Assembly: GCF_007741475.1 (NCBI RefSeq)
Contig: NZ_CP036261.1
Location: 3,349,798-3,413,797 of the forward strand
DNA from: Rosistilla ulvae
GTDB lineage: Bacteria; Planctomycetota; Planctomycetia; Pirellulales; Pirellulaceae
Reading direction: 5' to 3'
DNA length: 64,000 bases
A program made the position numbers and the translations under genes. This document shows, piece by piece, positions 35,890 to 50,395 of the stretch; position 1 is the stretch's first letter, and each line of letters starts with the position of its first letter. The notes below the pieces were generated by a model. The model did no database searches. It had not been told where the DNA came from and saw only the letters and a list, made by a program, of their open reading frames with translations.

Positions 35890-36960
35890 CTAGGGGATCC
35901 CGCGAACGATGCTCGGTCCAATCGATTTTGTCAGCCAAACGGGTAGCTTCTGCCAGATCTTGATCCGCCGCTGATTCGCTTGCGAATTGGGACGCATCGC
36001 ATCGACATCCCCATTGCGGACGTAGTACTGCCAAATCGCGGGCGTCGGCACAGCTCCCCATTGCGCTTTGAACCTGTGCGTGCCGCTGTCGAGGCTGCTG
36101 CGGCCAAAGTCGAATGTGTGGCTGCCACGCTCGATCGCTCGGCGCAGCAGATGCCGGTACATCCACATATTGGCTCCCGTATGATTTTGTGATCGCAGGC
36201 AGCTCGCACTGGGGACCTCGGTCACACCGTCGGCGTGCACCAACAATGCGGCAGCGCGGGGCTGTCGATCGCCGCTGACAACACACAGCTCCGCATCGCC
36301 GGCAAAGGCGTCGAGGATCTTGGCGAACAGCCCTTTGGAGAAGACAGGCGTCCCGAGATCGCGCATGTTGACGGCGAAGACGTTGTAGAAGTGGTCCAAC
36401 AATTCGCGGCCTCCCCAAGCGATGCGATGATTCGATTGGTCCGCCTTGCGAACCTGGCTGCGGAGCTTCGATTTAAACGATTTGTCGAGCAGATCATCGG
36501 TGGCGGGCAAGGGCAACCGCATGTGGACCTTCTCGGTCCGTTGAAAGTTCAGCCGCGGATGTTCAACAGGCAGCTCGTGTCGGAGTTCCAGGTATTTGAC
36601 ATCCAGATCGTCGGCCAACTGGCACGCTCGATCGATCAACCGCGTCGCCGCATCAGTATCGCTCGCCCAGACGCCGCCGGTATTGATGTAGGGGAGCGAG
36701 ACCAAAAAGCTGCCAAAGATCGGCCCTTTGACGAGCACCAGCGGCAGCATGCCGGCGATCCGATCGCCATCGCGGTCCGTGATCAGGTATCCCGAGTGCC
36801 CCAGCCCCAACCGAATTGCATCCCACCAGGCGGGATTATGGGCTGCCAAGCGAGGCCACGACGCGTCGTCATCGGACGATAGATCGAGCCGCAGCCGATC
36901 GCAGTCTTTCAGGTCTTCAACCTCGACGATCAGCTCGGTCACCGACACAGACACAACCAC
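35890..36960 (-). CDS. FemAB-related GNAT-like protein (PEP-CTERM/EPS-associated)
   Basis: 356 residues. GTG at 36960 is the longest start, followed by three more in-frame GTG codons, so the exact start is open. The sequence has a double GNAT-like fold of the FemAB/peptidoglycan-bridge type: LGLGHSGYLITDRDGDRIAGMLPLVLVKGPIFG (N-terminal acetyltransferase-like) and, in the second half, FDFGRSSLDSGTHRFKAQWGAVP, the phrase characteristic of the FemAB-related family linked to PEP-CTERM/exosortase EPS loci (TIGR03019). It probably transfers an acyl or aminoacyl group to an envelope or exopolysaccharide acceptor. It is the last gene of the minus-strand EPS region, after the PEP-CTERM gene and a terminator. 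Confidence 0.88.
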   Translation of the reverse strand: MVVSVSVTELIVEVEDLKDCDRLRLDLSSDDDASWPRLAAHNPAWWDAIRLGLGHSGYLITDRDGDRIAGMLPLVLVKGPIFGSFLVSLPYINTGGVWASDTDAATRLIDRACQLADDLDVKYLELRHELPVEHPRLNFQRTEKVHMRLPLPATDDLLDKSFKSKLRSQVRKADQSNHRIAWGGRELLDHFYNVFAVNMRDLGTPVFSKGLFAKILDAFAGDAELCVVSGDRQPRAAALLVHADGVTEVPSASCLRSQNHTGANMWMYRHLLRRAIERGSHTFDFGRSSLDSGTHRFKAQWGAVPTPAIWQYYVRNGDVDAMRPNSQANQRRIKIWQKLPVWLTKSIGPSIVRGIP

Positions 36961-37084: not shown

Positions 37085-37981
37085 TTAAGCGGCGCGTGCA
37101 GCTTTGCGACGACGACGTCCCATCGCACAAGCTCCACCAACGCAACCCAAAAGAGTCAGCATCGAAGCGGGTTCGGGAATGGGATTAACAGCCCCCACAG
37201 CCGCACCGGATAGCGAACCAACCCCGCCTAAAGCGGGCGCTGTAGTAAACAGCGACGTACCTGGCGGTCCTGGCAATGATCCGCTTGACCCTACGAAAAG
37301 ATCGTACGATCCGGGCAAACCGCTACCGGGCATTGTTGCCGGCAAGAATGTAACAGGCTCAAAAGTTGTGGCCAATTTAGTAAAGCCAAACTCAGCATTC
37401 AATGTCGTCAACACGCCACCACCAACACCTGCTGCCAGGTCAAAAAGCCCCTCAACTTGATAATCAGTGCTATCGAAAGTAGACACAAATTCGCCGAGAG
37501 TATCCAAATTAGCTGCATCAATCGAACCAAAGTCTAACGTCGTGCTTGTCAGCAAGGCAGCAGAGGACGCTGCTATATCACCGTTAGTGAAGAGCGGAGA
37601 AAGCTGGGCGTTTGGAAGTACATCGCCAATAGAGTAGCCGGAACGGGTGGTTGCCTCCAGCAAACCAGCAACCTCCCCAGGTCCGATTCCTATAAAGTCT
37701 GCCGATACAATCAGTGCAGCATAGCTTCCAGGAGCAAGTGGATCCCCACCAATCGTTGAAAGCGAATATAGGCCAAGAAGCGTATCACCATGAACGGCTA
37801 AGCTGTTCAAAAATGGCTGGGTTGCTGGTCCATGCACGTATGTTCCCTTAACTCCCGCAAAAGTTAAGTCATCTTGAACTCCGTCATACCCACCAGGATC
37901 CACAATTGAAGGAAAAAGACTCGCAGCATTGGCGGATGTCGACGCCAGCAGTAGGGCTAGTAAAGCAAAATATTTAGTCAT
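37085..37981 (-). CDS. PEP-CTERM sorting-signal protein
   Basis: A 298-residue exported protein. The ATG at 37981 follows GAGGA by about 8 nt and opens a clean signal peptide (FALLALLLASTSANA). The C-terminus is a full PEP-CTERM tripartite signal: Pro-Glu-Pro in NPIPEPASM, a hydrophobic stretch LTLLGCVGGACAMG, and the basic tail RRRRKAARAA. An exosortase would remove this and attach or export the protein. The mature part is Gly/Ser/Thr/Ala-rich and beta-like, with no enzyme motif. No exosortase gene is in the window. The gene is visibly lower in GC than its neighbours and has its own terminator. Confidence 0.93.
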   Translation of the reverse strand: MTKYFALLALLLASTSANAASLFPSIVDPGGYDGVQDDLTFAGVKGTYVHGPATQPFLNSLAVHGDTLLGLYSLSTIGGDPLAPGSYAALIVSADFIGIGPGEVAGLLEATTRSGYSIGDVLPNAQLSPLFTNGDIAASSAALLTSTTLDFGSIDAANLDTLGEFVSTFDSTDYQVEGLFDLAAGVGGGVLTTLNAEFGFTKLATTFEPVTFLPATMPGSGLPGSYDLFVGSSGSLPGPPGTSLFTTAPALGGVGSLSGAAVGAVNPIPEPASMLTLLGCVGGACAMGRRRRKAARAA

Positions 37982-38036
37982 AAGAAGAATCCTCGTCATT
38001 TCGTTAGTAAAGAAAGTCATTCTGTTTGGTCTTGTG

Positions 38037-38408
38037 TCAAACAAGAATGAGCCGAGGTATGTCGTCTAACAGTTGCACTCTGCGAAGCTCGTCGACCCGC
38101 TCACGACGCCAGCGAATCCAACGACCGTCGTGATCCTTGACAACGTTCGTTCGACCGGCCGCCAATCCGAACAAGGGGCCGCTTGGCGTCGAACCGTCGA
38201 CCATCTGAAACCCAAAATCGATCGGCGCCTCTTCGATAACATTCGGCGCGTCGTCCGCCGCAGGAGCCATCGAAACCACGTCGGGCAAATTGGAATCCAA
38301 CCCCACATCGATCGCAGCATGCGCAGACGAACTCCCCGCTGCGCTGCAGAAGAGCGCAACAGCGATCCACAGGGTGCGGGAGACGATTCGAGTTCGAAGG
38401 AGTTCCAT
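38037..38408 (-). CDS. Small exported protein of unknown function
   Basis: 123 residues from the ATG at 38408; an ATG 12 codons upstream is possible. The N-terminus looks like a signal peptide (LWIAVALFCSAAGSSSAHAA, about 12-31). The rest is short, with FGFQMVDGSTPSGPLFGLAAG and a charged WIRWRRERVDELRRVQLLDD end. No family is recognised. Its end lies 56 nt upstream of the PEP-CTERM start, so it may be cotranscribed with it. Confidence 0.6.
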   Translation of the reverse strand: MELLRTRIVSRTLWIAVALFCSAAGSSSAHAAIDVGLDSNLPDVVSMAPAADDAPNVIEEAPIDFGFQMVDGSTPSGPLFGLAAGRTNVVKDHDGRWIRWRRERVDELRRVQLLDDIPRLILV

Positions 38409-38651
38409 ATGCCAAACATTAACCCCCAGAGGAGGTGGGTGCAATCGTTTTCATCGTTAAATTTTGCATCTGCCGGAAATTCTTCGTTGCCCGCTCGCTT
38501 GTGGCCTTTCGCTCCGCAAAAGTGCGTTCCCTCGAATCGCCCGACCGAGCGCCATCACCCGGTCCAGCCGCAGCTTGCTCTTGAAAATTTTGACGCTCAA
38601 CCTCTCTGAGAACTCTTCCTACCTAGCGCTTCATCCACATTTGCATTTTGG

Positions 38652-39196: not shown

Positions 39197-40084
39197 CTAT
39201 TGCCCGACCATCCCGGCCAGGATTTCGTAGGCGGCAACGGTTGTCTGGTGCACAGCGAACGCCTTCGGCACAATACCGACCGGTCCCAATGATCCCTCGC
39301 CCCGACCAAGGAAAACGATCGGCAGCGGTTCGATTGACAGTCCCGCTCGCTTTGTCAGTCTCAAAACTCTCGGCATATGACCCGCATTGGTGATCATCCC
39401 CCAACGCTGCTCTTCATCGGTTGCATCAAACCGTGTTGTCAGAAGCGCAATCTCTTCCCGGGTGTTGTTTCCCTCAAGAGACTCGATCGACGCAGCTGGC
39501 ACGCCGATCGATTCAAGGAGGATCCGAGCTTGTTGCGCATGCGATATTTCCCCGTCGGAGAATGCTGGGTTACCGCCGGTTACAAGAATCCGCGATGTGC
39601 GGCCACTGTGATACATTTGAGCGGCCAAGATCAGGCGCTGACCGTCCCACAATAGCTCCGGCTGCCCACTGAGCCCCATCTTTGTGCTTCCCCCCAGCAA
39701 AACGACCGTGTCAAACGACTGATCTGCGGAGTGCTTAAACGGCAACACGGGGCGTTCCAGCAAGTAGTTCATCCGCGCCGCCACCCAGCTGTTTCCCGCA
39801 ACCCCCAATAGCACGACAAACGCCAAATAGTGCCAGGCAAGCCGGTCTTGTCGCCGCCAAAAGGCAACCAGACAGCCGGCGATGGCGAGATTCCAGATCA
39901 GCCCCACCGGCATGACAAAATGGGTGAGGATTTTTTCCACGGCCTGCCAACCTTGTTGGAACCATCCCCAACCGGGCAACCCGAGCCAGAGTCCACCCGC
40001 GACCAGCAGGACCCACCAACGGCGCCGTATGAAAATTGAAGTTTTGGATTGTTCGTTCACGGCAGCGAGTGTCTCCAAATTCAT
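39197..40084 (-). CDS. DUF218/YdcF-family membrane protein
   Basis: 295 residues from the ATG at 40084, which avoids overlap with the upstream glycosyltransferase; an ATG at 40123 is possible. Three likely membrane helices lie in the first 110 residues. They are followed by a DUF218 domain (about 125-280): TVVLLGGSTKMG, ILVTGGNPAFSDGEISHAQ, IESLEGNNTREE and MITNAGHMPRVLRL are typical spacing for SanA/YdcF/ElyC proteins. These take part in envelope or polysaccharide metabolism; ElyC affects lipid-carrier use in peptidoglycan synthesis. It lies directly after the GT4 gene on the minus strand and is likely in the EPS operon. Confidence 0.87.
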   Translation of the reverse strand: MNLETLAAVNEQSKTSIFIRRRWWVLLVAGGLWLGLPGWGWFQQGWQAVEKILTHFVMPVGLIWNLAIAGCLVAFWRRQDRLAWHYLAFVVLLGVAGNSWVAARMNYLLERPVLPFKHSADQSFDTVVLLGGSTKMGLSGQPELLWDGQRLILAAQMYHSGRTSRILVTGGNPAFSDGEISHAQQARILLESIGVPAASIESLEGNNTREEIALLTTRFDATDEEQRWGMITNAGHMPRVLRLTKRAGLSIEPLPIVFLGRGEGSLGPVGIVPKAFAVHQTTVAAYEILAGMVGQ

Positions 40085-40091
40085 AGCAAAG

Positions 40092-41351
40092 TTAAACTGA
40101 GACCGGTTGCTGCAGGCCATCATAAACGGCCGCCATCATTTGCATCCGTTTTGCAAAACAAAAACGTTGTTCCACCGTCGCGCGAGCCGCTTGCCCCAGT
40201 TGCAGCCGCAACTCGGGCTGGCACAGCAACTCGCCGATCGCCGCCGATAACTTTTCACGATCGCCACAATCGACCAGACGGCCGTTGGTCTGGCCATCGA
40301 TAAGCCGAGGGACACCGGCGACACGCGTGGAAACGACCGGCACTTCGTACGCCATCGCTTCTAACAAAACGTTTGGCAATCCCTCCCGTAGACTACTGAG
40401 CGCGTAGATGTCCATCGCTTGGTAGTGCATGGCGGGGTCGGCGACAAATCCAGCCAAATGGATCCTATCCCCCAGCTCCAGGTCGGCGATCTGTTGTTCC
40501 AGCTCGCCCCGCGCCGGCCCCTCCCCCACGATGCTCAAGCCGACATCGATTCCAGCGCGGATCTGCTGGGCGACCGCATCGATCAACAGATGGAAACCTT
40601 TTTCGGGCGACAATCGCCCCACCGCTCCGACCAGCAATCGGGACTCAGGCCAGCCGAGTTCCCCCTTGGCCTGGGCTATCGATTGGCTGCGCCGCGTTTG
40701 CATTAGATCGATTGCATTGTCGACAAGCATCAACGACTTCGACTTCACTCCCATCCCCTGGCACGTCTCCAACAGGTCGGTGGAAACGCAGATCACCGCC
40801 TCGCAGCGTCGCAGAGACCAGCGATCGATCGCGTAATAAAGGGGCGTCTTCCATGTCTTGAGCACCCATCCGTGGACTGTCGAGACGATCCGCATTCGAT
40901 GGGTTCTGCGCAACCAGATCCCAACGAGATTGCTTTTGTAGTCGTGGCCGTGCCAAATCAACGGCCTGTTGCCGACCAAGGAGAGCAGCCCCTTGGCGCG
41001 TCGCAAGATACCGCGATCGGTAGGTCCAAAATCATCGATCGCCACCAGCGGCGCATCCGCCTCTTGGGCTCGCGCTTCGATCGATTCAAACCCGCTATCG
41101 GCGGGATCACGGAAGTAGACGCACAAGCAGTCGTACCCCAGATCGTTCAGGAAGCGAGGCGAATGGAGGATCGTCTTCTCCGGACCACCTCCGGTACCAT
41201 TGACGACCCGCGTATGCAGCACCAACGGCCACGAACCGGGCGTCGCGATCAACGCAGCGGCGCGAGAATTCAACGACACGCCCGCTGGCAGTTGCAAATC
41301 GGTCGGCAGGGTATCGTTGGTCACTGGGAAAACATTCAAGTCAATCGACAC
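40092..41351 (-). CDS. Glycosyltransferase, GT4 family
   Basis: A 419-residue GT-B fold enzyme. The N-terminal domain starts after about 40 residues (LVLHTRVVNGTGGGPEKTI). The C-terminal GT4 domain has LVGAVGRLSPEKGFHLLIDAV and the catalytic E-x7-E region SSLREGLPNVLLEAMAYEVPVVS. It transfers a sugar from a nucleotide donor to a lipid-linked EPS intermediate; the sugar cannot be told. The gap to the VanZ-like gene upstream is 23 nt. No membrane helix is seen, so it is cytoplasmic or peripheral. Confidence 0.93.
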   Translation of the reverse strand: MSIDLNVFPVTNDTLPTDLQLPAGVSLNSRAAALIATPGSWPLVLHTRVVNGTGGGPEKTILHSPRFLNDLGYDCLCVYFRDPADSGFESIEARAQEADAPLVAIDDFGPTDRGILRRAKGLLSLVGNRPLIWHGHDYKSNLVGIWLRRTHRMRIVSTVHGWVLKTWKTPLYYAIDRWSLRRCEAVICVSTDLLETCQGMGVKSKSLMLVDNAIDLMQTRRSQSIAQAKGELGWPESRLLVGAVGRLSPEKGFHLLIDAVAQQIRAGIDVGLSIVGEGPARGELEQQIADLELGDRIHLAGFVADPAMHYQAMDIYALSSLREGLPNVLLEAMAYEVPVVSTRVAGVPRLIDGQTNGRLVDCGDREKLSAAIGELLCQPELRLQLGQAARATVEQRFCFAKRMQMMAAVYDGLQQPVSV

Positions 41352-41374
41352 GGAAAATAGTATCGTCGCGCCGA

Positions 41375-42814
41375 CTACTGATAAAGTCTAGAATAAGAGC
41401 CGTTACTGGATGGATCGGGTGTCAAACCCCAGGTCACTATCGATCGATAGAAGCCCCATCCGCAGAAGGCGCCCACGGCATAGATCAATACATCCGCGGC
41501 GTCGCCGTAAAACGGTACCAGGTAGATTTGCGAGATTTCGATGGCAACCCCGGCCCCAACGACAATCGCAAGCGACACGCAACAGGAAGCAAGTCGGGGA
41601 GGTGAAACGCGCTGACCTGGTCGCGAGAACGCGTTGCACAACGCCCCCCCCAATATACTAAACGCGATCAATTTGCCCATCAGATTTGAACCTGCCATAA
41701 ACTCGCTTGTGTAATAATATTTTACGAATGGCGGCGTCCAAAATTGGGACCACGCGTAGGCGACTTCCGCATCGCTGGCGATCCGTTCGTAGCGGCCAAG
41801 AAATGCCATCACAACGGCCGCTAATGCGGTAACAACGGCAGCCACACGCACGGCCAGCCGGTCATTGAAACGCGCGATCGGTTCCAATTGCAGCCCGACA
41901 ACCATCCCCAACAGACCTCCACCCCAACCGCACAACGCGTCTGCAAAGGTTGTAAAACGTGTGAAGATGGGAGCCTGCAACAGTTCGATCAGGATCGGAA
42001 CTCCTATCAACAGCGCTAAGCCACGTTGTCGCCAGCCCGACACGACCAACAACAAACCGACAGGTAACATGCGAGCCGCGGAGAGTACTAGGCTTAGCGC
42101 GAGATGCAATGTGCCTCGCTGCAGATCGATCGAAACCAAATTCAGTTCCGGAACCCAAGCAAAACGGCCTGCCTGCCACTTTGCTTGCCATTCGTTCCCC
42201 GAAAACATGATGTCCAAAGGCAACACCGAATACGCGATCAACAGAGATAGATACATCAGCAACAACCAACCCGTGATCCGTCGCGATGAAGGACCGTCCC
42301 AGGTCAGTCGACGGACTTGCCGCCATGCGGCGACAGCCGGGCGTCCAACAAACATCCAGGCCAGTGGACCGATCGTGGCCCCGATACAGCCGGCTGCGAT
42401 ATCGTTTTGGGAAACGGTCCGCCGTGGATACCACAGTTGCAGGAATTCGATCGCCACGACGAGCGCATTGCCAAAAACGATGATCGCCAACAGCGCCAAC
42501 GCATACCGGCCCGTCGTGCGGGAATCGCGATCGGCAGCTCCAGCCAGCAGGAAACCGAACGGAAATGCCACCAAACCGTTGGCGACCCAATCCGCCCTTC
42601 GGTAGACACCCAGGTTCAACCAAGGGATTTCCGGGAACCGTTTGATCGCCTCGGCAAACGAAAGGGGCTGGAATTCCAGCGGGACAATCGACGCGTAGAT
42701 CAATCCCAAAACAGCAAACATCCCGCCCCAGCCGAGCCAACAGCGGAGTCGATGAACAGCGACGGGTGCTGGTGAAAGCATGTTGGTCTGGCGGTCGCTT
42801 GTGCTGGTAGCCAA
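41375..42814 (-). CDS. VanZ-like membrane protein
   Basis: A 479-residue polytopic protein with about ten to twelve helices, built as two VanZ-type halves (ADWVANGLVAFPFGFLLAGA, ALVVAIEFLQLWYPRRTVSQNDIAAGCIGATIG, then LALLIGVPILIELLQAPIFTRFTTFADALCGWGGGLLG). The Glu-hydrophobic-Gln and Asp residues within helices are typical of VanZ. VanZ proteins are frequent in exosortase-linked EPS loci, but the biochemical role is unsettled. It lies 6 nt downstream of the HprK/nucleotidyltransferase fusion gene. Confidence 0.88.
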   Translation of the reverse strand: MATSTSDRQTNMLSPAPVAVHRLRCWLGWGGMFAVLGLIYASIVPLEFQPLSFAEAIKRFPEIPWLNLGVYRRADWVANGLVAFPFGFLLAGAADRDSRTTGRYALALLAIIVFGNALVVAIEFLQLWYPRRTVSQNDIAAGCIGATIGPLAWMFVGRPAVAAWRQVRRLTWDGPSSRRITGWLLLMYLSLLIAYSVLPLDIMFSGNEWQAKWQAGRFAWVPELNLVSIDLQRGTLHLALSLVLSAARMLPVGLLLVVSGWRQRGLALLIGVPILIELLQAPIFTRFTTFADALCGWGGGLLGMVVGLQLEPIARFNDRLAVRVAAVVTALAAVVMAFLGRYERIASDAEVAYAWSQFWTPPFVKYYYTSEFMAGSNLMGKLIAFSILGGALCNAFSRPGQRVSPPRLASCCVSLAIVVGAGVAIEISQIYLVPFYGDAADVLIYAVGAFCGWGFYRSIVTWGLTPDPSSNGSYSRLYQ

Positions 42815-42820
42815 GGTGGA

Positions 42821-45001
42821 TCAAACGTCTTTGGTAAATTGGATGCGTTTTGTCCAAGTCAAAGGATCCAACCAGGTTTGGAAGCGAGGCAACGGGTAGT
42901 GCTCCATCTTCCACATCGCGAACCGGCGGCCCCTGGAACGCAATGTGGGTCCGTCGGGTACGGCGGCTCGCCGCATGTCTTTGTATAATCGCCGGCGCCG
43001 CATCCTCTCTGGTCTTTCCTGTAGCAACAGCTGACAGACGTGCTGGGGCCGACCACGTCCGACTAGGTCAGCGACCAAAAGCAATATCGTCGCCACAGCG
43101 CGACCAATGCCAAGCTGGGTGGTTCGCTTTGCGAAAATGTCCCAATCGAACGGCGTCGCGGAGTTCCCGTGCGGATTTCCTGGTCCACCTTCGATCAAGC
43201 AATAGATGTCCCATAGATCCCGATAAGCGCGTCGGTAATCGCCGATGTGAGCAATATTGATGATCGCATGCAGTGTTCGATCGATCGGATCGAGCATCCG
43301 AAATGGACTTCCAGCGATCGGGACCGAGCGTTCGATGAATTCGTCCGCACAAAAACTGTTTGGGTCAGCGCGGGGCAACAAACGGAAGTGAACGTCGAGT
43401 TCTAATCGTCGATAGGGATGGTGCAGTGGTGGCGTTTCGTGAAGCCAGCGTCGATAGTACCGAGCATCCGCGTCGGATATCTTTTCGTCCGATTGATATC
43501 CCGCATCGACCAAAGCACGCTCGACGCAAGCAACCGATTCCTCGGGAACCAGCAGGTCGAGATCGTTGGTGTTTCGTCCCCGTGCCCACGGAAGATCGGC
43601 GGCGATATAGGCAGCTCCCTTCAACAAGACGACCCGGTCACAAACCGCAAGTAGAAATTGCCGCAGATGAAGCAATTCGAATTCGACCGTCTTGCGAATC
43701 AATTCCTCTCGCTGATTCACTCGCAGCAAAACGTGTTGAACCACCTCAGGTAAAGAGAAAAGTTCAGGATCGGAGAGCCGCCGGGCAATCCGAGGCAACA
43801 ACTCGGTGTGATTGGCGATTAATATCAAATGATTCCATTGCTTAAGTGTCAGCTCTGCAAGTAAATCCGGCGTATGTAGAGCTTCGACCAACAATTGCAA
43901 ACCATCGGCCACTCCGCCAACATCGCGAATCGCCGGACCGTGTGGAGGACTCGCCGATCGATGCAACTTTGGAACGCTTTGCGACGGCGTTTCACGCGTC
44001 TGCGGCTTGCGAATATTAGATGATGCTGGCCCTTTCCGCGGTGCAGCACGACCCGTTGAAGACTCGGTCAAGCCCAAGGATGGAATGTCATCGAATAGAG
44101 AGTTGTCACGCAGGAATTTTTCTGCATCGGCGGCGTCGTCGTAGACCAAATCGTAAGCGGGCAAGTGCTTGGCAAGTTCAACAGCAAATTCAAACCCTCG
44201 CTTCCCGAGCAAGCGGAAGTTCAATCCATGTTGCAATAGCCTGGAAAACAACGTCCCCCGTTCAACGCGACTCAGTTGCAGTTCGACATTTGGAGAACGG
44301 TGTGGAAAGACGATCGCGACGGGCGCAAAACGTTGACCCGAGAGCTTCCGCGTCTCCTCGGTGGGCAATAGATGGGCGACCCGCACTGGTGGATCGAGAA
44401 TCCTTCCCGAGGGACCAAAGACGGCCCTTTCTCCATAACGCTGGGACATCATCTCCAATGAATGCCCCTTCAATATCGTCGGGCGACCGAGGCCGGTTAT
44501 TCGAAAGTCAGCGAGATCGAACAGCGAGATCTCGTCGCTCAACAGGCCCCAGCCCGACATCATTAGCGTCGACGCCAGCGTACTTTTCCCCGCTCCCGAT
44601 TGCCCCGGAAAAACGATCGCGCCGCCGTTTCCACCGGGACGCACCGCTGCAGCTGCATGTACCGCCAATGCATCATCCGCACCGCGAAATATGCAGTGGC
44701 TGAATATCCACTCGATCGCACCGACGGTCAGCCGCGCTGGCCATTGGTGCCAAACTTTACCATTGACCGTTGATATCACCCCTCGTTTTCCACGAACGAT
44801 TGTCGGATCGTGTCGCACTTGGAACGTTGAGAAATCGGCCGGATCCCTCAGCGGATGGTGGGGATACAACCGGTGCACGCCAACGGCAATTTCAGCAATG
44901 GGAGACTGCAATCGAAACTCATAGAGCCCCAGGGTCAATCCGATCCCGTTGCCTCTCAATCGCCGCCGGACTTCACGAAGCGTCGCCTCACCAATGCTCA
45001 A
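42821..45001 (-). CDS. HprK-related kinase A fused to nucleotidyltransferase
   Basis: 726 residues in two parts. Residues about 1-300 are an HprK-related P-loop kinase: Walker A at 133-141 (GQSGAGKST), followed by WGLLSDEISLFDL with D156/E157; this is the HPr-rel-A type (TIGR04352) rather than true HPr kinase. A Ser/Pro-rich linker (about 305-360) follows. Residues about 365-720 match the NTP_transf_5-type family PF14907 (LLKGAAYIAADL, NTNDLDLLVPEE, and ELDVHFRLLP). Both parts are usually separate genes. It overlaps the PqqD-like gene by 4 nt (ATGA). Kinase and nucleotidyltransferase next to a PqqD-like carrier suggest peptide modification by phosphorylation and nucleotidylation; the substrate is not shown. 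Confidence 0.9.
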   Translation of the reverse strand: MSIGEATLREVRRRLRGNGIGLTLGLYEFRLQSPIAEIAVGVHRLYPHHPLRDPADFSTFQVRHDPTIVRGKRGVISTVNGKVWHQWPARLTVGAIEWIFSHCIFRGADDALAVHAAAAVRPGGNGGAIVFPGQSGAGKSTLASTLMMSGWGLLSDEISLFDLADFRITGLGRPTILKGHSLEMMSQRYGERAVFGPSGRILDPPVRVAHLLPTEETRKLSGQRFAPVAIVFPHRSPNVELQLSRVERGTLFSRLLQHGLNFRLLGKRGFEFAVELAKHLPAYDLVYDDAADAEKFLRDNSLFDDIPSLGLTESSTGRAAPRKGPASSNIRKPQTRETPSQSVPKLHRSASPPHGPAIRDVGGVADGLQLLVEALHTPDLLAELTLKQWNHLILIANHTELLPRIARRLSDPELFSLPEVVQHVLLRVNQREELIRKTVEFELLHLRQFLLAVCDRVVLLKGAAYIAADLPWARGRNTNDLDLLVPEESVACVERALVDAGYQSDEKISDADARYYRRWLHETPPLHHPYRRLELDVHFRLLPRADPNSFCADEFIERSVPIAGSPFRMLDPIDRTLHAIINIAHIGDYRRAYRDLWDIYCLIEGGPGNPHGNSATPFDWDIFAKRTTQLGIGRAVATILLLVADLVGRGRPQHVCQLLLQERPERMRRRRLYKDMRRAAVPDGPTLRSRGRRFAMWKMEHYPLPRFQTWLDPLTWTKRIQFTKDV

Positions 45002-45399
45002 TTTGTCACTTCCACATAAACAATTCCGATTTCCGCCATCTGGCCCAACGACAACTCCACATACTGCGACAGCTGATGGTCAATCGGCAGGTCGAGCGCC
45101 ACAGATACTTCGCCGACCAACGTTTGCTGGTTGGCAGCGGAAGAGGGGACCCTGTTCAGAATACGAAGGATTTCGGCATCGATGGCGTTGAGCAAGAAGG
45201 CATCCGCAAAACGCGGATTATAAACGGCAAATTCATGCTCCGAGAGTGCTTCAACGACCAAGTCGTCGACCAGAATTCGCCAGCGAAAGGACGCTGTCGA
45301 TGACTTTAAGTCCAACGGTGGACCCTGTGAAGCTTCCTGTTCGGAGAGCATCAGTGGTTTTGAATGTTGAAGAAGCTGAGAAACGGATCGACTAGTCAT
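44998..45399 (-). CDS. HPr-rel-A system PqqD-like peptide chaperone
   Basis: 133 residues. The core (about 40-125) follows the PqqD/RRE pattern: FRWRILVDDLVVEALSEHEFAVYNP, then AFLLNAIDAEILRIL and the helix SQYVELSLGQMAEIGIVYV. PqqD-type domains bind leader peptides in PQQ and other RiPP pathways. The match is to the PqqD-like family that accompanies HprK-related kinase A in EPS loci (TIGR04353). It overlaps the kinase gene downstream by 4 nt and the short peptide gene upstream by 8 nt. An N-terminal 35-residue Ser/Gln-rich extension precedes the core. Confidence 0.88.
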   Translation of the reverse strand: MTSRSVSQLLQHSKPLMLSEQEASQGPPLDLKSSTASFRWRILVDDLVVEALSEHEFAVYNPRFADAFLLNAIDAEILRILNRVPSSAANQQTLVGEVSVALDLPIDHQLSQYVELSLGQMAEIGIVYVEVTN

Positions 45400-45610
45400 C
45401 CGTGTCGGTGATCGTGCCGCCCGATACGCCTGAACCGCCTCCGTCGGCGTAGGCCTTTTGAGCCGATCCAGCCACGATCAAAGGTCCGCCCGCCATCGCG
45501 GCGGTGAGCAACATCCGCCGGCGTTGCTTCATCGATTTGATGTTGTCGGAGTCCGCAAACAGACATTCGTCTTCCGATTTGATCGGTAGATTCTCTTTTT
45601 TCACGTTCAT
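45392..45610 (-). CDS. Short exported peptide, possible precursor of the HPr-rel-A system
   Basis: 72 residues from the ATG at 45610; Met27 at 45532 is an alternative, and neither has a strong ribosome binding site. The frame is open further upstream to 45910, but that part reads like shadow sequence. After an acidic/charged 26-residue start comes a basic-hydrophobic stretch MKQRRRMLLTAAMAGGPLIVA, then KAYADGGG and a Gly/Ser/Thr/Asp tail. The RRR plus hydrophobic segment and Ala-Tyr-Ala would fit a Tat/Sec signal; alternatively the whole is a leader-core precursor. The stop codon overlaps the PqqD-like gene's start by 8 nt. It is not a known family; the role as modified peptide is inferred only from position and size. 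Confidence 0.6.
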   Translation of the reverse strand: MNVKKENLPIKSEDECLFADSDNIKSMKQRRRMLLTAAMAGGPLIVAGSAQKAYADGGGSGVSGGTITDTDD

Positions 45611-45922
45611 AGCATCACACTTTGCAGAAGACGGAAAGGAAACGGTAGATCGGTCGGCGAAGCGGCGTTGCAGCAGCATACCACAAGAGGGGCAACCTGT
45701 CAGCCACTTACAACAAAAATGGATGAGATAACGCCCAATTGGAAGTAGGCGATTGGCTGGGCGCCCCCGTTCTCCATGTTCGACAAAACGGTGTTGGCAT
45801 TCGCAAACAGCAACCGGTAGGAACGAAGAGACGATTGCAGGCGGCCGGAAGCCACATGAAAGTAGAGTCGAGTCATCGCCATCCCCCCGGGGCCACTGCG
45901 TATGCGACACTGCAAACGCAAC
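45611..45922. other. 312-nt gap upstream of the HPr-rel-A genes
   Basis: It should carry the promoter of the peptide/PqqD/kinase genes. Overlapping frames on both strands here (45700-46146 minus, 45739-46056 plus) have no domain. Cys-rich translated stretches look like chance. Confidence 0.4.
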
Positions 45923-47071
45923 TTAACTGGTGGGCAGTATCCGAGTTCGAAACTGTGCCGCCTTCGCTTGCCAACTCTCGCTGGCGAGCCGCGCAGCAAG
46001 CCGCTCAATTCGTTTTGACGATCCCGCTTCGCGCTGTTGCATCGCCTGAATCGTAGCGGCGACAAATTCTTGTTTATTGGTGACCATCTCCAGACAATCT
46101 CGCCAATCGCTGACCGCTGGCAGCGAGGCCGCCACGACGGGAACACCTGTCGCCAGGTATTCTTTCAGTTTCAATGGCTGCATCGCGCGGGTGACCGGCA
46201 GGTCGGCATAAGGCATGATCAACACCGACGCCTGACGAGCCAACGCGGGCAATTGAGCAAATGGGACGGGACCGATCGCGGCGATCCGCGGATGCAAAAG
46301 GAGCCGCGGATCGGGATCCTGTTGAGGTCCCGCCAATACGATCGTCCCCGAGTTGATCCGATCGGCCAGAGCGAGGACCCATTCGGCATTCATCCGCCGG
46401 TCGACGACACCCCAAAAAACAGCCAGCGGACCCGGCAATGAAGCGATCTCCGCCGGCGGTTCCCCGGTTGGTTTCGCCCAGAAATCGCAATCGACCCCGT
46501 GGGTCAAGATCGAGACGTTGGGATGCAGAGGACGAATCGCATCGGCGAGATTTTCAGAAGCGGCGACGACACAATCGACTTTTTCTAAAAGCGAGCGTTC
46601 CATCATCCGCATCGCATTGGCGGAGAGCCCGGGCCAGACGGAAAAATCATCGACGCAGTAATAGACCCAACGCCGGACCGGCAGCCGGCCGACGAGATCG
46701 GCAACGATTGGGATTGTCGTCACCGCGATCGCCCCATCGGAGACATCGTGCAACTGCCGTGTCAACAGTTGTGCGTTCAACGCCTGGTCCCAGCGGTGCG
46801 ACATCCAGGGCCACATCGTTGGATTGCGAATTGCCAGGGCGGCGGGGAGCGGGGCGGCAGAGACTTGGTCTGCGGCCGACAACCATTGATGCAGCTTTTC
46901 AGCGCCACGTGCAACCGTCATTCGGTCCCATCGCGGCGGGCGCATCCCAACCGTGTTGACCCAGGTCGCCGAGAGCTCGGGCAACAGCTCGCCGACGAGA
47001 TGCTGACAGCTGCTCGGGTGCCGCCCCCAATCATCGGAAAAGACCAGCAACTGGTTCGTCGTTTCAGACAC
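45923..47071 (-). CDS. Glycosyltransferase, GT-B fold
   Basis: 382 residues from the GTG at 47071, which overlaps the stop of the previous gene by 8 nt (GTGTCTGA); the frame's first start at 47203 would overlap 140 nt and is not favoured. The N-terminal half (TNQLLVFSDDWGRHPSSCQHL) and the region RRWVYYCVDDFSVWPGLS resemble GT4-like enzymes that lack the usual E-x7-E. The C-terminal half has ILTHGVDCDFW, LAVFWGVVDRRMNAEWVLALAD and AMQPLKLKEYLATGVPVVA, the donor-binding pattern of the GT1/GT4-like EPS transferases. The sugar is unknown. Confidence 0.88.
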   Translation of the reverse strand: MSETTNQLLVFSDDWGRHPSSCQHLVGELLPELSATWVNTVGMRPPRWDRMTVARGAEKLHQWLSAADQVSAAPLPAALAIRNPTMWPWMSHRWDQALNAQLLTRQLHDVSDGAIAVTTIPIVADLVGRLPVRRWVYYCVDDFSVWPGLSANAMRMMERSLLEKVDCVVAASENLADAIRPLHPNVSILTHGVDCDFWAKPTGEPPAEIASLPGPLAVFWGVVDRRMNAEWVLALADRINSGTIVLAGPQQDPDPRLLLHPRIAAIGPVPFAQLPALARQASVLIMPYADLPVTRAMQPLKLKEYLATGVPVVAASLPAVSDWRDCLEMVTNKQEFVAATIQAMQQREAGSSKRIERLAARLASESWQAKAAQFRTRILPTS

Positions 47072-48218
47072 GGTTCGCCAGCACCGACCAATCGAATTCT
47101 CGCTTGGCCCGTTGCCGGCCGGCACGGCCCATCGAGTCTTTGACCGTCGAATCTTGGAGTAACTGAACGGTTGCGGAGGCGATTTCATGAGGCGAACGTG
47201 CATCGACCAACCGGCCGGTCACGCCATCTTCGATCGCTTCGTAGGTTCCTCCCGAACGGCCTGCAATCGTTGCTTTGCCACAGGCCGCGGCCTCCAGCAA
47301 TACCATCCCAAAGCCCTCCACGTCGCTTCCGATCTGGCGATTCGGTAACGCAAACAAATCGCATTGCTGATACATCTGCAATAAGCTGCTGTCGGACACC
47401 TTGGGGTGCCAACAGATCGACGTCGATACTCCCGTTTCCGCTGCCAAAGCGTGAAGTGCTTGGCGTTCTTCGCCATCGCCCGCGATCGCATATTTCAACT
47501 TGGGAATCGCAGAAAGGATTTCAGGCAAGGCACGAATCATTTGATCGTGCCCCTTGCGTTTCTGTAATCGCCCCACCGTCAGGACGACGGGAGCATCGTT
47601 CCAGCCTAAAGCATACCGGACGCTCAAGTTTCGAACGGAGGGACAAAATGTTTGCGTATCAACGCCCGGATTTAGAACGGTGATTTTACCCGCAGGAACG
47701 TTCCATTGCTCGGTCAGTATCCGTCGCGTGTTTTCGCTGTTTGCGATCATCCCTTGAGCCCGGCAGAGTACCTTGCGCGCCATCCAGCGATGTTGCCGAC
47801 TGGCCATCACCCCTCCGTCCTCGCTTCCCTGGAGGTTCAATTCCTCGCCATGCGCGTAACAATGGTACGGAGTTCCGGTTCGCATCGAATGCAGATAGGC
47901 TAACCAACCCTCGGGGAGCACACGAGCGGCGTGGAGCACGACATTCTCTTGGGATGGCAGTTCGGCTGCAATACGTCGTAGCAGACGCCAATACCCCCAA
48001 ACGCCGCGCGGTGACAATCCGCCGGTGTCTGCAAGTGAAAAAACAATTCGCCGAATCCAGCTATCTGCGTCCACAAGTTCGTCCGCTCCAGACGCTAACC
48101 GATCGACGATCGCAAGGGTCGAATCGCGCGGCTGACGTCGAGCTAGCTCATACAACCAGCGTCCACTTCCGCCATGCGTCGGCGGAAAAATCTCCGACAA
48201 ATAAACCCTATGCATCAA
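47064..48218 (-). CDS. Glycosyltransferase, GT4 family
   Basis: 384 residues. The N-terminal domain begins YLSEIFPPTHGGSGRWLYEL, which is the acceptor-domain loop (Gly-Gly-Ser-Gly). The C-terminal domain has VLTVGRLQKRKGHDQMIRAL, AGDGEERQALHALA and the E-x7-E region DVEGFGMVLLEAAACGKATIAG, with GRSGGTYEAIEDGVTG. A retaining GT4 enzyme for EPS assembly, donor unknown. The start overlaps the end of the O-antigen ligase gene by 11 nt, so translation is coupled. Confidence 0.93.
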   Translation of the reverse strand: MMHRVYLSEIFPPTHGGSGRWLYELARRQPRDSTLAIVDRLASGADELVDADSWIRRIVFSLADTGGLSPRGVWGYWRLLRRIAAELPSQENVVLHAARVLPEGWLAYLHSMRTGTPYHCYAHGEELNLQGSEDGGVMASRQHRWMARKVLCRAQGMIANSENTRRILTEQWNVPAGKITVLNPGVDTQTFCPSVRNLSVRYALGWNDAPVVLTVGRLQKRKGHDQMIRALPEILSAIPKLKYAIAGDGEERQALHALAAETGVSTSICWHPKVSDSSLLQMYQQCDLFALPNRQIGSDVEGFGMVLLEAAACGKATIAGRSGGTYEAIEDGVTGRLVDARSPHEIASATVQLLQDSTVKDSMGRAGRQRAKREFDWSVLANRV

Positions 48219-49537: not shown

Positions 49538-50395
49538 CTATCGCGGTGAGTCAACCAGGTGGCCGATATCTAACCGTTGGGCCGTTTCCTGCAGGTCAAA
49601 ATTCAGTGTCAGCTCCTTGCCCAATAATTTACGGCTAACGTGTTCCAAACGTTTATAATCCGGATGGTTGATCGACGTACAGTGCCCTTCTTCCAAGGAG
49701 GGGCGATCGAGCGGCACAACGTCCCCACCGCAGTGCCGGCGCCAGTACATGATTCCGGTACCGTGGTCGTAGTAGTGTTTCGCCCTCCGTCGGCGTTCAC
49801 GGTCGCTGGGGCAATTCGGATGGCAATCAAAACGTTGCCACCAACCGGTACCGTGGCGAAATTGATCTTCGCTGGCCGCCGCCGTCGTGCACGCTGCCAG
49901 CTCCCAATACCGATGCTTTCGAAAATTCAGCCAATTTCGTCGCCCCCCCAGATCTCGCACGGCGGCGATCTGTCCATCGGTCAGAGCTTCAAACGTTCTG
50001 GCGAGTCTTTCCATCACATCCATGCGGCACAGTAGATCTGAATGCCAGAACGCAAGCCGCGGGGTCCAGAGAAAGGCAAATTCCAGCGGAAAATGCATGT
50101 ACATCAGTGGCAGGTCGAAGCCACGATTGAAGTCCACGACCACGGCATCGAGCGCTGCCGACGGGGCACCAAACCGAGGGTCGAAGCCGACGACAGGCGT
50201 CCAGCCAACGGCTTGGACGAGGCGGGTTTGCAGCATCGTCCAGTGGTCGTTGACGTGCCAGCACAACCAGGGCCGTTCGATGCCCCGTACTGCCGCCTGC
50301 CAATCCGCAGCGGCGTGGTAGAGACGTTCGAGCGGGAACGGAAAGGCATGCCAATTGCCGATTCCGGTGTGGTGGTCGATTGCTTGCTCAGCCAT
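49538..50395 (-). CDS. Protein of unknown function in the EPS locus
   Basis: 285 residues, start ATG at 50395. Rich in Trp, His, Asp and Cys, for example HVNDHWTMLQTRL, VVGFDPRFGAPSAALD, VVVDFNRGFDLPLMYMHFPLEF and HYYDHGTGIMYWRRHCGG. No signal peptide or membrane helix. No family is recognised; the many acidic and His residues could bind metal or carry out a sugar-modifying reaction. Its position between the O-antigen ligase and a glycosyltransferase implies an EPS role. Confidence 0.65.
   Translation of the reverse strand: MAEQAIDHHTGIGNWHAFPFPLERLYHAAADWQAAVRGIERPWLCWHVNDHWTMLQTRLVQAVGWTPVVGFDPRFGAPSAALDAVVVDFNRGFDLPLMYMHFPLEFAFLWTPRLAFWHSDLLCRMDVMERLARTFEALTDGQIAAVRDLGGRRNWLNFRKHRYWELAACTTAAASEDQFRHGTGWWQRFDCHPNCPSDRERRRRAKHYYDHGTGIMYWRRHCGGDVVPLDRPSLEEGHCTSINHPDYKRLEHVSRKLLGKELTLNFDLQETAQRLDIGHLVDSPR

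Follow-up and report, generated by a model that had tools for sequence, protein, structure and literature searches.

Which molecule is modified by a bacterial gene set that joins a PqqD-like protein to an HprK-related kinase and a nucleotidyltransferase? The question is raised by a three-gene cassette of Rosistilla ulvae, located in a stretch of 64,000 nucleotides (assembly GCF_007741475.1, contig NZ_CP036261.1, positions 3,349,798 to 3,413,797 of the forward strand), which as a whole is referred to as the window. The first gene of the cassette encodes a 72-residue peptide. As small proteins with the same export-type signal accompany peptide-binding protein, kinase and nucleotidyltransferase across widely separated bacterial groups, it is the likely target of this enzyme set, whose substrate was not known. 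We somewhat favour the reading that the cassette is self-contained, a protein-modification system that brings its own substrate and works by the mechanism proposed below. The three open reading frames (ORFs) of the first-pass annotation, a model's reading of the letters alone, were found where it had placed them, all on the minus strand, and the motifs GQSGAGKST and LLSDE that it had named are both present in the kinase. The cassette consists of the following features.

45392-45610, minus strand: candidate substrate peptide, 72 amino acids (conservation, ratio of non-synonymous to synonymous substitution rates (dN/dS), leader model)
45524-45610, minus strand: peptide residues 1-29, N-terminal extension, kept in the congener but not in the third genome
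45446-45523, minus strand: peptide residues 30-55, leader resembling a twin-arginine translocation (Tat) signal, RRRMLLTAAMAGGPLIVAGSAQKAYA, 19 of 26 residues identical to another genus
45395-45445, minus strand: peptide residues 56-72, short Gly/Ser/Thr/Asp tail with an S..SG motif that occurs in 3/3 closest peptides
44998-45399, minus strand: PqqD-like protein, 133 amino acids, modelled with the fold of a recognition element (RRE) of ribosomally synthesized and post-translationally modified peptides (RiPPs); conserved part residues 31-133 (45001-45309) (TIGR04353, structure model, profile match)
42821-45001, minus strand: HprK-related kinase fused to an NTP_transf_5 nucleotidyltransferase, 726 amino acids, TTG start
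44108-44938, minus strand: HprK_rel_A kinase domain, fusion residues 22-298, with H115, P-loop 136-141, D156 and E157
43061-43840, minus strand: NTP_transf_5 domain, fusion residues 388-647, with K461, G462, D480-x-D482 and D536
45675-45703, minus strand: promoter-like site 5' of the peptide gene, CTGACA, 17 nucleotides, TATGCT, extended -10 (consensus scan)

The peptide has no match in Pfam or NCBIfam, and ten relatives likewise reach no family cut-off in either library. It is nevertheless not a chance ORF, as it is present at the same place in two other genomes, that of a congener (locus L018; 86% identity over 64 residues) and that of another genus (locus L019), and as dN in the comparison with the congener is 0.131 against a dS of 0.840. 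The dN/dS of 0.155, which falls to 0.107 for residues 1-56, indicates at the sequence level that the ORF is under purifying selection. The lack of conservation that the first-pass annotation had named as a refutation is not observed: the ORF recurs in the congener and in a second genus, and its leader belongs to a family that spans phyla. The predicted combination of a conserved leader with a variable tail holds as well; together, ORF conservation and the cross-phylum leader family support the suggestion that the enzymes have a dedicated peptide partner. In the same comparison with the congener, five genes of the locus (40092-45610) are 52-84% identical and three control genes 97-100%, so that the locus diverges or is exchanged much faster than those controls. 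The promoter-like site is one found where 0.3 were expected, which is no sign of function; the congener shows a similar arrangement (CTGACG, 17 nucleotides, TATAAT).

The PqqD-like protein scores 27.5 bits with TIGR04353 PqqD_rel_X (cut-off 35) and the kinase domain 148.4 bits with TIGR04352 HprK_rel_A (151.5 in the genome search; cut-off 200), and as both NCBIfam scores lie under the curated cut-offs, the two proteins are regarded as divergent relatives of these families. The C-terminal domain of the fusion reaches 129.2 bits with Pfam PF14907 NTP_transf_5 at a cut-off of 31.2. With respect to the gene overlaps of 8 and 4 nucleotides reported at first, both exist as ORF coordinates, but the longer one is not conserved, the gap between peptide and PqqD gene being about 90 and 300 nucleotides in the two nearest relatives. 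Residues 1-30 of the PqqD-like ORF are unaligned in the congener and of low confidence in the structure model, and a later start (ATG at 45351) would abolish the overlap, which may stem from the choice of start.

How far the association extends was followed through genome searches. Among 147 related genomes, 8, counting its own, hold a relative of the query P0003, while P0003 alone recovered no relative in the wider search of named genomes; within the phylum, 45 of 392 genomes have a TIGR04353 match (13 above cut-off), and within the class, 15 of 397 have one to TIGR04352 (7 above cut-off). An alignment of nine kinases was used in the wider search, in which the best 80 of 168 relatives, judged by record title nearly all from Proteobacteria, were kept and supplemented with two plasmid loci, from Vibrio alfacsensis and Sphingomonas parapaucimobilis, to give a set of 82 loci. 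Kinase and nucleotidyltransferase models match all 82 and the PqqD model 75, and the window has the PqqD-like, kinase and NTP_transf_5 genes in series, the arrangement of the HPr-rel-A families. The product encoded upstream of the PqqD gene in the 82-locus set is typically about 170-290 residues long and starts with a leader of the type seen in the window peptide. An iterated model of leader plus SGN finds the partner ORF 5' of the PqqD gene in 71/82 loci, and a joint leader model built from both sides, in part from the very loci counted, has a match anywhere in the locus in 76/82 (E-value up to 1 among 13,572 ORFs). Six loci are missed. In L132 a leader can be made out by eye, the contig end truncates L145, L149, L158 and L172, and L150 carries a transposase-like ORF; L158 lacks the RR because its contig begins inside the leader. 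In 32 control loci with a PqqD gene and no close HprK_A relative, a weak leader match (11-12 bits) occurs in two, in a set that is not free of kinases, nine loci (L067, L072, L074, L078, L081, L086, L088, L089 and L093) having a weak match of 21-80 bits. Of the 27 kinase loci listed on the window's side, 22 match the joint model; in this set L084 and L085 have weak matches that lie downstream, the sequence of L012 stops within the kinase gene, a leader is visible in L185, and no leader peptide was seen in L184, L187 and L188.

Because the joint model had been trained in part on the loci it counted, the leader models were cross-trained and judged on 19 and 75 loci chosen since a candidate was already visible in them. 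When the 82-locus side is the only source of the model, the ORF with the window peptide comes first among the 596 window ORFs (11.9 bits, E 0.0058; the next at 8.1 bits), and in 18 of the 19 loci from the window's phylum the candidate outscores every other ORF, L058 being the failure; the reverse model, trained on the window's phylum, places the candidate first in 60/75 loci. The leaders of L115 and L155 were cut at the wrong RR in the leader models and in the RR-motif and tail counts, and at the right one in the Pro-x-hydrophobic counts. Gene order is less constant: the candidate lies downstream of the enzymes in L127, L161 and L166 and between PqqD and kinase in L183, so that its position varies while the association with the cassette persists. 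Kinase and nucleotidyltransferase form one protein in the window, L018, L019, L178, L180 and L181. In L185 and L186, a single ORF comprises a PqqD domain, then the leader, then a polyproline or collagen-like tail. The view of the peptide as dedicated partner of the cassette is well supported and very likely to be right.

Several leads were set aside, namely a leader match in L059 that is probably due to chance, a false match in L191 caused by a proline run, and L072, L081, L086, L088 and L089, where no leader peptide was seen and the kinase matches are weaker (40-80 bits); a radical-SAM-type protein lies upstream in L089. Other loci show variations of their own. A radical-SAM-type gene stands between leader peptide and PqqD gene in L071 (4254-5953) and hints at a second chemistry; L064 (4838-6442) and L075 (5030-6733) have short Tat-like, Lys/Pro-rich ORFs before a 395-residue protein with an N-terminal PqqD-like stretch and no HprK_A kinase match; two tandem substrate-like genes lie 3' of the cassette enzymes in L161 (2541-4043) and L166 (5689-7107); and the transposase-like ORF of L150 (4816-5655; Phycisphaeraceae) is directly 5' of PqqD, at the place expected for the substrate gene.

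What, then, is the shared leader? Its layout is RR-x-hydrophobic followed by an Ala/Gly-rich segment, often Pro-x-hydrophobic, and A-x-A. An RR with a hydrophobic fourth position is found in 73/75 candidates of the 82-locus side and 18/19 of the window's phylum, and mid-leader Pro-x-hydrophobic in 31/74 and 18/19, respectively. With a Ser or Thr also preceding the arginines, as in the textbook Tat motif, the RR pattern is found in 41/75 and 6/19 candidates. The window peptide combines a twin arginine, a short hydrophobic region and A-x-A, and its genome has tatC (145.3 bits, cut-off 132.7) and thus a Tat system; the 'basic-hydrophobic middle' of the first-pass annotation is therefore better described as a Tat-like signal, an assignment made by motif.

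The PqqD-like protein had been proposed to be of the leader-binding type, and its structure model (predicted local distance difference test (pLDDT) 84.0) agrees. Foldseek ranks 1-4 are the complexes of the lasso proteins TbiB1 and TfuB1 with leader, at probability 1.00 and template modelling scores to the target of 0.71 and 0.64, with a best E of 2.5e-3 and no match under 0.001; next come methyltransferase domains at E 0.016, and PqqD itself is at rank 19. A profile search against solved structures likewise retrieves TbiB1 (E 3.3e-4), TfuB1 and a lasso PqqD-family chaperone, with designed helical repeat proteins scoring among them and one of these scoring best. In the model, the protein thus has a leader-binding RRE fold. 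As for the fused enzyme, the kinase profile retrieves HPr kinases at E 1.1e-4 beside other P-loop proteins. Kept in the kinase are H115, the P-loop and D156-E157, and in the nucleotidyltransferase K461-G462, D480-x-D482 and D536, which we take, from knowledge of the families, to be the catalytic residues; the window nucleotidyltransferase departs at 1 of 44 strongly conserved positions.

A local enrichment bears on which residue of the tail might be modified. A Ser within 40 residues of the leader is found in 74/74 and 19/19 candidates, which alone is of little meaning. On the 82-locus side, SG[NGPD] occurs 41 times in the 2932 residues just after the leader (14.0 per 1000) and 33 times in the remaining 9575 residues (3.4 per 1000). 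SGN-x-S as a universal modification site was nonetheless rejected, as it is enriched yet not universal. The window peptide ends in DTDD and has no C-terminal Ser.

From these elements, the following mechanism is proposed. The peptide would be made as a precursor in which the Tat-like signal doubles as a recognition leader, followed by the short tail bearing Ser and Thr. The PqqD-like RRE-fold protein would bind the leader and present the tail to the fused enzyme, whose HprK-type domain would phosphorylate a tail Ser or Thr, perhaps one of the two serines of S..SG, and whose NTP_transf_5 domain would then decorate the phosphate with a sugar or a nucleotidyl group. Export via Tat and a cut after A-Y-A would follow, and the phospho-decorated product would end up outside a cell that makes exopolysaccharide (EPS) from the same locus. 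Binding of the leader by the PqqD-like protein is probable, supported indirectly by the PqqD-leader fusions; export of the peptide via Tat is likely; phosphorylation of the tail appears rather likely; and for decoration by the nucleotidyltransferase the chances are about even.

A number of results weigh against this proposal. In the AlphaFold model of a natural PqqD-leader fusion, the RRE is confident, but the leader has a block pLDDT of 47-51 and no interface is predicted. Of 47 positions conserved in >=93% of 74 kinases, 11 differ in the window kinase. The tail motif SG[NGPD] is near the leader in only 39/74 and 9/19 candidates, and the tails of L178, L180 and L181 are without SG. Of the 18 window-phylum loci in which the candidate is the best ORF, just 11 have E<0.01, with L019, L070 and L185 above 0.1, and the phylum-trained model reaches E<0.01 in only 28/75. 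In known systems, the nucleotidyltransferase LppN of the linear polyphosphorylated peptides (LPP) was inactive in the heterologous host (PMC13381572), and the hexose addition to pseudomycoidin might stem from a host glycosyltransferase (PMC9266682), so that the case for the second chemical step is weak in the related systems, too. Finally, four other places of the same genome score no worse with the leader profile, and the ORFs at these places resemble enzymes with Tat signals; that the leader is unique to the cassette was therefore ruled out. Between the window and the genome of the other genus, however, the 26-residue leader is identical at 19 positions, while in three of those four enzymes the signals are identical at 10, 10 and 9 of 26 with mature parts at 73, 71 and 58%, and of the cassette proteins themselves the PqqD-like protein is 34% and the kinase-nucleotidyltransferase 49% identical. 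Such constraint on the leader points to a partner that reads it.

Is the cassette then a member of a described system? Two kinds come closest, LPP and phosphorylated lasso peptides. In the LPP of Bacillota, kinase-dependent polyphosphorylation of a core serine has been shown, and the discrete RRE, the HprK-like kinase, the nucleotidyltransferase, the conserved leader with variable tail, the lack of a macrolactam cyclase and the frequent location within polysaccharide loci are all similar (PMC13381572). In contrast, LPP have a signal peptidase I (SpI)-like peptidase, an MsbA-like transporter and a YxxPxVLxHQxIxFETxxS leader (PMC13381572), whereas the window leader is Tat-like and the window peptide has no YxxP motif, and many candidate substrates here are, unlike LPP, proteins of about 200 residues. 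The phosphorylated and phosphoglycosylated lasso peptides paeninodin and pseudomycoidin share the RRE (B1), the HprK-like kinase acting on Ser and a nucleotidyltransferase gene tied to hexose on phosphoserine, and in pseudomycoidin phosphorylation and hexose addition depend on the kinase and nucleotidyltransferase genes (PMC9266682; PMC8498205). The His-Lys-Asp-Asp motif of lasso kinases (PMC9266682) appears in the window kinase, mapped by position, as His-Lys-Asp-Glu. Unlike in paeninodin-type lasso peptides, the C-terminal Ser site is not conserved, the window peptide ending in Asp-Asp. A scan of 26 other window ORFs, for most of them against a single library, found neither an SpI-like peptidase or MsbA-like transporter nor a lasso macrolactam synthetase/cyclase or B2 protease; as these families and the YxxP leader are missing, the window system is filed as neither LPP nor lasso.

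Also similar are the HPr-rel-A families (TIGR04352/TIGR04353), which have a homologous kinase and PqqD-like protein beside NTP_transf_5 in the same gene order, although the window proteins lie under both cut-offs and no NCBIfam model scores above cut-off for the peptide. Searches of an open-access library found no paper on these family names, and none of the titles and abstract openings listed concerned this system; two RRE surveys (PMC12710340; PMC7470986) contain no kinase or HPr terms in their text. General RiPP features are present in the conserved leader with variable tail and in a protein with a fold of the leader-binding RRE type.

Some Tat substrates mature in the cytoplasm with a dedicated signal-binding chaperone before they are exported. 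Different from these cases, the proposed chaperone has an RRE fold in the model and the proposed maturation is phosphate-based.

The genomic surroundings bear on the final role of the product, as the cassette had been described as part of an EPS locus.

41375-42814, minus strand: VanZ-like membrane protein, EPS context (Pfam; relatives in L018, L019 and L020)
40092-41351, minus strand: glycosyltransferase of family GT4, EPS context (NCBIfam and Pfam)
39197-40123, minus strand: ElyC-like DUF218 protein, EPS context (NCBIfam and Pfam)
45923-47203, minus strand: glycosyltransferase upstream of the peptide gene, EPS context (library scan)
35890-36960, minus strand: FemAB family XrtA/PEP-CTERM-associated protein, about 6 kb from the cassette (above NCBIfam cut-off)

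The description holds for the close lineage of the window, where relatives of the window's EPS-type genes flank the cassette in 6 of 23 window-side loci (the window, L018, L019, L020, L021 and L022), but was seen to apply in only 6 of 82 other loci; both counts are lower bounds, as the stretches span 17-20 kb for the window, L018 and L019 and mostly <13 kb for the rest. A 285-residue ORF of the EPS locus (49538-50395, minus strand) has no Pfam or NCBIfam match. In the same region, a PEP-CTERM-like protein with motif scores below cut-off (37085-38044, minus strand) stands beside a small conserved, secreted-looking ORF (38037-38444, minus strand), a pair that occurs once in the window and twice in L018 (1635-2941 and 3851-4989) and adjoins a full and a shortened FemAB copy.

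Could the peptide simply be an ordinary small envelope protein, exported by Tat and co-regulated with the cassette, while the true substrate of the enzymes is a different exported protein or, for instance, a precursor of sugars? Other proteins of the genome have Tat signals like this leader, which makes it plausible as one, and the cassette lies among EPS genes in the window's lineage; we consider this unlikely though, as the association is found in 76/82 loci, few of which have EPS genes nearby (6/82), as PqqD and leader are fused in two loci and as the leader is far more constrained than the three control Tat-type signals. The EPS genes also invite the idea that the modified peptide is a primer or anchor for polysaccharide and serves the EPS locus directly. 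The cassette is embedded among glycosyltransferases, a Wzy-like ligase and VanZ, with the XrtA-associated FemAB 6 kb away, and the nucleotidyltransferase gene of pseudomycoidin is needed for the hexoses on phosphoserine (PMC9266682), but a relative of the window EPS genes was seen in the flanks covered of only 6 of the 82 related cassettes, a lower bound, and we regard this role as improbable.

Quite improbable is a conventional RiPP, in which the RR segment would be only an RRE-binding leader that a peptidase removes, and in which, by analogy with LPP, a short linear phosphopeptide would be released as a signal or antimicrobial. LPP have the same enzyme trio (PMC13381572), and a hydrophobic-x-x-P-x-hydrophobic stretch (Ala counted) in 18/19 window-phylum and 45/74 other leaders comes close to the RRE motif W/Y/LxxP/L/I (PMC12710340); the stricter form [YWL]xx[PLI]x-hydrophobic is, however, found in only 11/19 and 14/74. 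Moreover, the scan of 26 other window ORFs, against a single library for most, turned up neither a signal-peptidase-like nor an ATP-binding cassette (ABC)-exporter family, the leader segment ends in A-x-A like an export signal, and most candidates of other phyla are proteins of about 170-290 residues rather than short cores.

Returning to the peptide as the modified, Tat-exported partner of the cassette, the wider generalization is tentative, and we would put it at somewhat less than even: a widespread class of systems in which a Tat signal serves as the recognition leader read by an RRE-fold chaperone, a kinase and a nucleotidyltransferase place a phosphate-linked group on a Ser or Thr directly behind that signal, and the product is exported by Tat. 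Equally tentatively, the window may represent the minimal form of this class, with a tail of 17 residues and a location beside exopolysaccharide genes. The NCBIfam names of the kinase and the PqqD-like protein carry no substrate, and a linked, conserved candidate makes the question of their substrate testable. If true, phosphate chemistry of the lasso type would be linked to Tat export and, in Proteobacteria, would reach beyond short peptides to proteins some 200 residues long.

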